From the NCBI GenBank assembly GCA_018646625.1, contig JABGUJ010000001.1, positions 379,534 to 443,533 on the forward strand: DNA of 64,000 bases, in the 5' to 3' direction. The notes under the pieces were generated by a model. The model saw nothing but the letters and a program-made list of their open reading frames with translations. It was not told where the DNA came from and made no database searches. The stretch comes from Candidatus Woesearchaeota archaeon. Lineage in GTDB: Archaea; Nanobdellota; Nanobdellia; Woesearchaeales; JABGUJ01. This document shows, piece by piece, positions 40,932 through 43,748 of the stretch. The position numbers were made by a program, and so were the translations under genes. Numbering within the stretch: the stretch's first letter is position 1; the number at the start of each line of letters is the position of its first letter.

Positions 40932-41720
40932 TTAAGAATTTTTTTCTTGTTGTTCTTTCAAAGCTACTAGCTCTTCAAAATGATCGTTGGCGGCAACAAT
41001 GATACCTTCGGTTTGTTTTTTATTGAAACTTACTCCCGACAATGCAGAAAATGAATCCACTGACGCCTCTTTAGATGGAATCTCGAAGTTCATCAACACC
41101 CCATCTTCCATTTCATATATTGGGGTGAGCTTTGCATTAAATGCTTCTTTTGCCACTTGTATAGTCTTAGATTGTGGAAATGAAGAACCAACCGGAGTTG
41201 GAGAGAAAATTTTAACATAAGATGGGCCTGTAGATTTAAGTGCCTTATCGACTTTATTCACAATATCTAACGGAAACGCAACACTTGTTGTAGCTGCATA
41301 CGTTATTTCTGGAGATTTGTCTACTTCTGTGCCCTTACCATCTAAAAACACATAGCACACATTAGATGCATACTTCTTAAGCATTTCAACTTCGGCCTCC
41401 CTTTGCGCCTTAGTTGTCTTTTCATCTACTAAAACAAGCAGATTATATATCTTATTACCTTGATTCATTGATGTCTCGACACCCAGCGCTAATGATGCTG
41501 GACAGTCATCTGTATGTATGAATGGAATTTTCCATGATGGTTGAATAATATTTTTTGCTGAATTTTTAACAAAACTTGAAGAACTTACGACAATAGTATT
41601 CTGACCTGCTGCTTTCAGTGCAAGCCTGGTCGCCAATACTTTTCCACACCCTGGAACCCCTTCATGTCCTGGGCTGATGTACTCTTCAATTGATAGACCG
41701 TTTATTTCGTTTTTGTTCAT
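40932..41720 (-). CDS. porB: PorB-like subunit with eroded TPP and Fe-S sites
   Basis: The 262-residue protein aligns by eye to 2-oxoacid:ferredoxin oxidoreductase beta subunits over its whole length: an opening PGHEGVPGCG, KIPFIHT, YAATTSVAFPLDIV, GPSYVKIFSP and a closing PIYEMEDG. The residues for catalysis are missing. Of the four Cys that hold the proximal cluster only the second remains (the first is Val; the TGC position reads SSS; the PCPTG position reads PTPVG). The thiamine-diphosphate motif GDG...DN is replaced by VDE and DG. It is probably a non-catalytic homologue. It is the last gene of the por-like operon, and its start overlaps the zinc-protein stop by four bases. Confidence 0.8.
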   Translation of the reverse strand: MNKNEINGLSIEEYISPGHEGVPGCGKVLATRLALKAAGQNTIVVSSSSFVKNSAKNIIQPSWKIPFIHTDDCPASLALGVETSMNQGNKIYNLLVLVDEKTTKAQREAEVEMLKKYASNVCYVFLDGKGTEVDKSPEITYAATTSVAFPLDIVNKVDKALKSTGPSYVKIFSPTPVGSSFPQSKTIQVAKEAFNAKLTPIYEMEDGVLMNFEIPSKEASVDSFSALSGVSFNKKQTEGIIVAANDHFEELVALKEQQEKNS

Positions 41721-41992
41721 ATTTTTTCAACCTTATTGTTTGCTTCAGCAGCCCTGATCTTGGCTTCAATTGTTTTTTCTCTTGCCCATTTGTCGTTGCC
41801 ATCACTTTCAAAATCCACTTTCACTGAAAGTCGCTTACCACAATCACATTCAAACATTTTGTAATGAATGAATACGTGGTGCTCCGACCTGAAGTCCTCT
41901 GGATCTATGTTGCGTTTGCAATATGGACAAATGTCCAATAAGTCGTCCTCTTGAATACTATGAAAGACTGTCGTCCCTAACACCTCGGTCAA
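41717..41992 (-). CDS. Zinc-ribbon protein inserted in the por-like operon
   Basis: The 91-residue protein has CPYC near 22-25 and CDCG near 49-52, each in a beta-hairpin context, so it likely binds one zinc. A charged helical C-terminus follows. The start is uncertain: TTG 41992 or GTG 41983, both near a GGAG. It lies between porA-like and porB-like genes, where no subunit occurs in ordinary archaeal por operons, and overlaps porB-like by four bases. It is probably a partner or assembly factor of the complex. No family recognised. Confidence 0.75.
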   Translation of the reverse strand: MTEVLGTTVFHSIQEDDLLDICPYCKRNIDPEDFRSEHHVFIHYKMFECDCGKRLSVKVDFESDGNDKWAREKTIEAKIRAAEANNKVEKI

Positions 41993-42033
41993 CTCCTGTT
42001 ATCCCCTTATTATCTATACGAGCGACTACTATG

Positions 42034-42978
42034 TCACTTAAGTTTCAATAAATCTTCGTAACCTTTGTAATTTAGTTTCTCGATTTTCTTATCTTTCAAC
42101 GACTGTTTTACTTGAGAAAAGAAAGAAAGATCTTTCTTTTCAACTACTACAACTGAATCAAAGTCTGAACATAATTTCGTGATGTGGTCTTTAGGAAATG
42201 GATTAATACATCTGACCCTAATTACCGAGTAATCTTTTATTTTATTCTCATTAAGATGTTGTTTTATTTTTCTGAACAAAGTACCGTATGTAACAATAAC
42301 TTTAGAACTTCCCTTTACATCATAACTCTCTGTTATTCCGTTACCTAAATCAATCCCTACTTTTCTCTTAAAATCTTTCGCGACTGCGGATATTGTGCTA
42401 AATATCTTTTCATCGTCGAACACAGAACTTCCGTTGTGTTCCACAGTATTCAAACACTCTGGTTTTTTAGGATTGAGGGTTATATGATCGGGTCTATAAT
42501 TAGGAAGTAAATTCTTCACAGTTGTTTTTTGCGGAAGATCAACAACTTCACTCGTATTTGATAGTTCTGGATCAATAACTAATTCAACAGGCAATAATAT
42601 ATCTTTATTCTCTGCAATGGAAAACGATTGCAATGCCGTATCAGTTAATTCTTGTAAACTTGAAACATAAATCTGAACACAATTCTTATTTGAATAGTTT
42701 TTAGCGAGAATAACTATTGGTAAACCGAGTTTCTTACACTCCTTCACGCTTTTGCCAACACCATTACCATCAAGTATGGCTAATGTTCTAGAACCAAATG
42801 AATTTGCACCCATTGCTGTATTCATGGTGGCTTTATCAGAATATAATTGTAATATGTTTTTTTGGAGCTTGGGTACATATCTACTAAACCCATCGGATGT
42901 TGATGCGACTACTTCTGGTTTGCTAATATCTACAATATACGAAAATGCCTTCTTGATATCAACTAGATCTCTGGTCAT
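42034..42978 (-). CDS. porA: PorA-like subunit lacking catalytic motifs
   Basis: The 314-residue protein is shorter than usual PorA (near 390). Its N-terminal region aligns through NTAMGANSFGSRTLAIL and GLPIVIL, and the C-terminal domain through KVIVTYGTLFRKI and VRCINPFPKDHI. The YPITP motif that contacts pyruvate/thiamine is absent (ASTSDGF instead). The conserved ESEH acidic segment preceding the AM-GA motif, which holds the Glu that activates thiamine, reads YSDK. Its ATG overlaps the ferredoxin-subunit stop by four bases. It is probably structural rather than catalytic. Confidence 0.8.
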   Translation of the reverse strand: MTRDLVDIKKAFSYIVDISKPEVVASTSDGFSRYVPKLQKNILQLYSDKATMNTAMGANSFGSRTLAILDGNGVGKSVKECKKLGLPIVILAKNYSNKNCVQIYVSSLQELTDTALQSFSIAENKDILLPVELVIDPELSNTSEVVDLPQKTTVKNLLPNYRPDHITLNPKKPECLNTVEHNGSSVFDDEKIFSTISAVAKDFKRKVGIDLGNGITESYDVKGSSKVIVTYGTLFRKIKQHLNENKIKDYSVIRVRCINPFPKDHITKLCSDFDSVVVVEKKDLSFFSQVKQSLKDKKIEKLNYKGYEDLLKLK

Positions 42979-43169
42979 TTTGTCGTCTTCAGCTCCAACG
43001 CTTTAAACGGGCACTCCTCTACGCAGATTCCGCACGATTTACATTTCTCGTGCTCGATGTCAAACCGTTTGTCAATACATCCGTCTGGACAGTACATCCA
43101 ACAGAAGCCACACTTCGTGCACTTCTTTACATCCCTTACTGGCTTAACTTCATCACCCATTTTTTGCAT
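42975..43169 (-). CDS. porD: PorD-like 2[4Fe-4S] ferredoxin subunit
   Basis: This 64-residue dicluster ferredoxin has two complete CxxCxxCxxxC sets (CTKCGFCWMYC and CKSCGICVEEC), eight Cys in all, each followed by Pro or linked as usual for delta subunits. It is the only subunit in the operon whose cofactor ligands are intact, so the complex likely still moves electrons or carries clusters. It overlaps porA-like by four bases and follows porG-like by 11 bases. Confidence 0.93.
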   Translation of the reverse strand: MQKMGDEVKPVRDVKKCTKCGFCWMYCPDGCIDKRFDIEHEKCKSCGICVEECPFKALELKTTK

Positions 43170-43180
43170 CTCTTGATAGT

Positions 43181-43714
43181 TTATTTCAAAACATCAATAC
43201 ATGACTTAAACTGTTTTTTAACTTTATCTTTATCAACTTGATCGTCTATCTTCTCAATACTTTTTATGATCGATTTAGGACTAAATTGATTAGTATTTTG
43301 AACTAGTGTTGCAAGTACTGGTAACACTAATCCTTTTGGAAACGCTTCTTCATCGGAAGAAAGTATTTCGTTAACATTTACACTTCTTAATTTATTTTTT
43401 AGTTTAATCGTTCCAGATAATTCTTTAGAATCTTTTTTAGTATTAACAATCACCATGCCGCTTTTCTTTACTCGTGACATTATGCTTTCTGATTTCAGAA
43501 ATTTTTCATTCATTAAAAAAATACAATCTGCTTGTCCGCTGTATACCTTGCTCACTGGCTTGTTATCTAGCATTACACAAGTCTCAGAGATCTTTCCCGT
43601 GTTCTCCCAGTAAGAATAGACTTCTTTTCCCTCAAAAAAGGCAGATTCCGCCAAAATGCTGCTCGTTTGAGCGGCATCAGCCTCATCACACCCAAAAACC
43701 AAGATTTCGTACAT
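43181..43714 (-). CDS. porG: PorG-like subunit without Gly-rich motif
   Basis: The 177-residue product matches the gamma-subunit fold in order and pattern: a beta-strand EILVFG, helix TSSILAESAFFEGKEVYSY, then VMLDNKPVSK, ADCIFLMNE and a late KGLVLPVLATLV. The GxGGQG loop reads GCDEADA, and the RRG segment that normally meets CoA is replaced by GKISET. The start is ATG 43714 or GTG 43720. A TATA box at 43741-43748 fits either as leaderless. It is the first gene of the operon, divergent from nop5. Confidence 0.8.
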   Translation of the reverse strand: MYEILVFGCDEADAAQTSSILAESAFFEGKEVYSYWENTGKISETCVMLDNKPVSKVYSGQADCIFLMNEKFLKSESIMSRVKKSGMVIVNTKKDSKELSGTIKLKNKLRSVNVNEILSSDEEAFPKGLVLPVLATLVQNTNQFSPKSIIKSIEKIDDQVDKDKVKKQFKSCIDVLK

Positions 43715-43740
43715 ATTCACTCTTCTTTTCTAAATTGGGA

Positions 43741-43748
43741 TTTAAAAA
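43741..43748 (-). promoter_or_regulatory. TATA box of the por-like operon
   Basis: CTTTTTAAA-type element on the minus strand, 27 bases upstream of the first porG-like codons. Its presence argues the operon is expressed. Confidence 0.55.

Follow-up and report, generated by a model that had tools for sequence, protein, structure and literature searches.

A pyruvate:ferredoxin oxidoreductase-type operon with open reading frames but without its catalytic sites in a small-genome archaeon

In anaerobic metabolism, pyruvate:ferredoxin oxidoreductase (POR) holds a central place; the enzyme is ancient and as a rule very strongly constrained. A stretch of 64,000 nucleotides (the window, C2:379534-443533) from an archaeal genome of 1.57 Mb (G000; 4 contigs, 96% complete) carries an operon with the subunits of this enzyme, for which an earlier note made from the sequence alone had proposed eroded active sites. 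The locus raises the question of whether the operon still encodes an oxidoreductase, is decaying, or is kept for another use.

Gene content, family assignment and lost sites

Five genes were identified on the minus strand from window position 43714 down to 40932, gamma first, then delta, alpha, a small zinc protein and finally beta, and all ORFs were open, as the earlier note had described. The TATA box that it placed in front of the operon was recovered as a TATA-like TTTTTAAATC of archaeal-type consensus by sequence reading (43739..43748, minus strand). This element lies approximately 24 nt 5' of the gamma ATG, so the mRNA would be nearly leaderless; an alternative GTG start at 43720 adds two residues to gamma. 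The four-base coupling claimed for three joints held at two only, delta/alpha and zinc protein/beta, while the gamma-delta and alpha-zinc joints were gaps of 11 nt and 41 nt, respectively. Genes for fibrillarin and Nop5 adjoined the operon.

The gamma-like subunit (43181..43714, minus strand) matched the PorC family PF01558 at 37.3 bits (3.9e-9, cut-off 27.4) and the delta-like 2x[4Fe-4S] ferredoxin subunit (42975..43169, minus strand) matched PorD TIGR02179 at 63.2 bits (1.8e-17, cut-off 60.05). For the alpha-like subunit (42034..42978, minus strand), matches of 36 bits each to PF01855 and PF17147 both exceeded the cut-off, and the PDB sequence match was 9bt4_B (2e-17). The family search gave no Pfam match for the beta-like subunit (40932..41720, minus strand), which matched the NCBIfam models for oxalate-oxidoreductase beta (1.7e-31) and PorB (5e-30), both under the equivalog cut-offs, and 5c4i_C in the PDB (1e-26). 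The operon thus unites homologues of all four PorGDAB subunits, and by these matches their membership in the POR family is above chance, which answers the concern that no POR match at all might be found. AF2 models of alpha (pLDDT 78) and beta (pLDDT 74) were of moderate confidence, and in a structure search of the PDB they retrieved POR and oxalate oxidoreductase subunits first, with 9bt4_A and 9bt4_C of Methanosarcina acetivorans as the top matches of alpha and beta, respectively. The subunits were modelled singly from 8 rows each, of which seven were homologues of intact type; because of these input rows the models support the POR fold and are not independent proof of it.

Motif losses were read in an alignment with approximately 34 intact operons from the class. 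In gamma, GCDEAD stood in place of GRGGQG, and the E-R-x-G segment that follows GxGGQG (the RRG segment of the earlier note) was deleted or substituted. In alpha, YPITPQT was deleted, ESEHSAM was replaced by YSDKATM and most of the NRALSAPxN..DHxD..RDxGW block (NRxxSAP at its start) was deleted. In beta, the GDG..DN motif for thiamine diphosphate (ThDP) and Mg was missing, with DEKTTKAQR in place of GDGGTFDIG and DNEAYMNTG...K deleted together with a block of approximately 37 residues after the motif, and one of the four proximal-cluster Cys was left (C25). Delta kept all 8 ligand Cys of both [4Fe-4S] motifs; it lacked the N-terminal extension of approximately 30 residues of intact PorD, with no in-frame extension upstream, and may no longer be placed in the complex as in POR. 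Overall, the ThDP/Mg, substrate, catalytic-Glu, proximal-cluster and GxGGQG sites of alpha, beta and gamma were gone, largely through deletion. The motif claims of the earlier note were thus borne out for all four subunits, and the alignment placed none of the catalytic motifs elsewhere in the proteins.

Positions near-invariant in intact relatives were kept at 28% in alpha, 31% in beta, 24% in gamma and 81% in delta, compared to means of 92-96% in intact members, where the gamma figures include one aberrant intact row at 10%. In alpha (0.28 vs 0.29) and beta (0.31 vs 0.33), retention of near-invariant sites did not exceed that of moderately conserved ones, a pattern that fits a loss of selection for catalysis. 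What the proximal cluster does in electron transfer from ThDP is described in PMC5020499. Judged from the mechanism of the family, 2-oxoacid oxidation by the window complex along the POR route is not credible because the known ThDP binding mode, the catalytic Glu and the electron path through beta are all lost.

Intact relatives, descent and the zinc protein

An intact por operon, whose possible presence the earlier note had raised, was found in the same genome at C1 466.8-469.8 kb (L007 2794-5780). This porGDAB locus has all motifs and belongs in the tree to a different POR type from the window operon, the two copies being approximately 30% identical. Given this separate locus, the window operon reads as a strongly diverged second copy and not as the working POR of the genome.

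An intact porA-zinc-porB architecture was found in many genomes of the order. The intact type II por operons of G218, G320, G340 and G355, for example, have the zinc gene flanked by porA and porB as in the window, but they keep the catalytic motifs, and the window operon is their eroded relative on a long branch. In the concatenated alpha-beta-gamma tree, the nearest rows to the window by path were G340, G218 and G249, all from the same order, and the window branch was very long. By gene order and sequence, the window operon descends from the porG-D-A-zinc-B type that is still intact in these relatives.

The zinc protein (41717..41992, minus strand, TTG start) has 91 residues with a CxxC..CxC pattern and has its homologue in the gene that separates porA from porB in related intact operons, with a best match of 41% identity (E 9e-20) to a protein of L085. 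This zinc-ribbon-like family (loci L146-L175) has no Pfam or NCBIfam model and occurred in 116 of the 353 order genomes. By comparison of hit coordinates it adjoined porB in approximately 26 of the 116 and lay elsewhere in the rest, including genomes without a POR-beta match. The zinc protein is therefore best taken as a marker of descent and not as a POR subunit, and its presence was ruled out as evidence of POR function. A different small gene, CutA-like by sequence reading, separates porD from porA in some relatives (L081-L083).

The porA genes of many relatives carry an insert of 27-32 nt with an in-frame stop between PITPQ and TH (L084, L086, L127, L129, L134, L085, L141, L081, L133, L140, L088 and L090/L073). 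The insert lengths are not all multiples of three. With its flanks the insert folds as CCAC-AGU-stem-loop-GUGG-AUA, a bulge-helix-bulge. Its CCAC/GUGG helix does not vary, whereas the five counted inner-helix pairs all changed on both sides; the covariation score was 0.463 compared to 0.194 after shuffling. A predicted cut of each bulge behind its second base would give CCACAG|ACNCAC and restore P-Q-T-H in frame, and the insert looks like a bulge-helix-bulge intron in a protein-coding gene with predicted splicing. The YPITPQT missing from the window alpha spans this site. Displacement or concealment of the motif by such an intron was considered and rejected: the relatives do carry the intron there, but the window alpha aligns across the region without the residues. 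For porB, an intein follows the GDG region in the frame at L100:4781-6820 (PF14890, with a weak LAGLIDADG match). Long porB frames of approximately 680-700 aa occur in L100 and, judged by frame length only, in G404, G557, G559, G561, G580, G596 and G624.

Maintenance and a second eroded operon

No stop was found in the 908 codons of the window operon. Simulated neutral drift produced a mean of 33 stops and a minimum of 20 at 50% amino-acid identity (100 runs), and a mean of 46 with a minimum of 32 at 33% identity, so the operon does not show the stops or frameshifts expected of a pseudogene operon at its divergence. Codon-position GC of the concatenated operon was similar to that of the neighbouring genes. 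Selection on the operon is indicated because 0 stops stand against at least 20 simulated; it is read from open frames only, in a GTDB family of one genome. On present evidence the genes do not appear to be in neutral decay, in agreement with the view of the earlier note. Evolution of gamma, alpha and beta is very rapid, with an end branch of 3.45 changes per column in the concatenation, so the constraint on them is weak.

The observation is not a one-off artefact, as a second eroded operon was found in G001, the best non-self match in a beta search of 378 genomes of the class. G001 is 99% complete and belongs to another family of the class than the window genome. Its operon (L040 5910-8687) has complete gamma, delta, alpha and beta genes with open frames and three 4-nt overlaps. 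As in the window, the ThDP, Mg and catalytic-Glu sites are lost: beta lacks GDG and DN..AYMNTG, and alpha lacks YPITP and ESEH. Unlike the window operon, it has no zinc gene, three of the four proximal-cluster Cys are kept, and one delta cluster is lost, leaving the Cys of exactly one. The genomes also differ, in that G001 gave no further PF01855 match and has no intact POR, so that the eroded operon is its only one, and its erosion apparently has a separate origin. An ADP-forming acetyl-CoA synthetase (an acyl-CoA synthetase pair) adjoins the operon.

The G001 operon grouped as sister with the intact one of G015, a genome of the same family (100/97, concatenation); the G015 operon lies beside what sequence reading suggests is an AMP-forming acetyl-CoA synthetase gene. 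A single eroded clade of window and G001 was rejected on the concatenation (p-AU 0.024) but not in the trees of alpha (0.09) or beta (0.18). Because of the sisterhood with G015 and the concatenated test, two independent erosions are likely, although not proven, with both branches long; operon architecture likewise disfavours a single common erosion.

A profile of the two eroded betas, run on all 353 order genomes and on an overlapping set of 371 from the phylum, revealed no third eroded case, and none stood among the listed matches of a PF01855 survey over the class sample; these surveys could miss more heavily eroded copies. Low-scoring PF01855 matches in G087, G081 and G236 were set aside as eroded PORs, since their frames of approximately 600 aa match only over the first 152-155 positions; by length, these proteins look like other fused 2-oxoacid oxidoreductases. 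A search for related loci with the window beta gave no relative, and one with both eroded betas gave 8 loci in bacteria and archaea, which were used as alignment rows only.

Possible functions and comparison with known systems

The best overall explanation, held at a probability of roughly 0.68, is a maintained POR-derived, ThDP-free pseudoenzyme operon with an inferred role. A type II porGDA-zinc-B copy has diverged strongly in a small-genome archaeon with an intact POR elsewhere in its genome, dropping every known requirement for 2-oxoacid oxidation and staying protein-coding. The alpha/beta/gamma shell would still fold and serve as a pseudoenzyme, and the favoured use of it, around the kept ferredoxin subunit delta, would be as a redox-sensing, electron-relay or regulatory protein and not as an oxidoreductase of 2-oxoacids. 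That the window operon is a coding pseudoenzyme is very probable; a specific redox or regulatory role of its complex is doubtful. The broader proposal, that such ThDP-free complexes arose two or more times among small-genome archaea with shell and ferredoxin as a non-catalytic redox or regulatory machine, is tentative, at somewhat less than an even chance.

Fast evolution, deletions at several sites and redundancy with an intact operon would also suit a decaying pseudo-operon, in which a type II copy, made redundant by the intact type I operon, drifts and has yet to acquire its stops. This appears improbable, since neutral drift to 50% identity would have left at least 20 stops, every frame survives several in-frame deletions and the delta motifs are kept; redundancy, moreover, cannot account for G001, where the eroded copy is the only POR. 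The absence of an intact POR in G001 also speaks against a regulatory half-enzyme, in which all or part of the eroded heterotetramer joins the intact POR as an inactive partner and tunes it. POR works as a dimer of protomers and both operons coexist in G000, but the two copies are of different types and approximately 30% identical, and such a role is unlikely.

Another reading gives a function to delta and the zinc protein only, with alpha, beta and gamma as passengers for translation coupling. Delta is by far the best-kept POR subunit, the zinc protein belongs to an independent and widespread family, and delta is linked with alpha, and the zinc gene with beta, by a 4-nt overlap each. The supposed passengers nevertheless make up the bulk of the operon and are stop-free, and in G001 it is delta that is half eroded and alpha that is better kept, which leaves this reading with a small chance. 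An active enzyme with new ThDP-independent chemistry in the vacated cleft is the least probable of all. The fold and the electron-relay clusters of delta may be kept, and an acyl-CoA context persists in the synthetase genes beside the G001 and G015 operons, but the window lacks the gamma GxGGQG and the proximal cluster, and no conserved new motif common to both eroded cases was seen in the alignment.

If the pseudoenzyme explanation is true, the complex has a separable non-catalytic role, given that erosion occurred apparently twice and once in the only POR of a genome. A POR gene set that is eroded and yet kept would point to a second use of an ancient enzyme, and calling por genes from domain matches is no proof that these genomes can oxidise pyruvate. 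Open-access full-text searches, which reach only a share of published work, turned up no description of a complex of this kind.

Among known systems, oxalate oxidoreductase of Moorella thermoacetica (PDB 5c4i) shares the fold of the window beta and is its best family and PDB sequence match. It keeps ThDP and its clusters, whereas these are not kept in the window beta, whose score is far under the equivalog cut-off. PorGDAB, for example that of Methanosarcina acetivorans (PDB 9bt4), has four homologous subunits in the same order of gamma, delta, alpha and beta, a delta with 2x[4Fe-4S], and the best structural match of the alpha and beta models. The window operon differs from it in having lost the ThDP/Mg, YPITP, ESEH, proximal-cluster Cys and GxGGQG sites.
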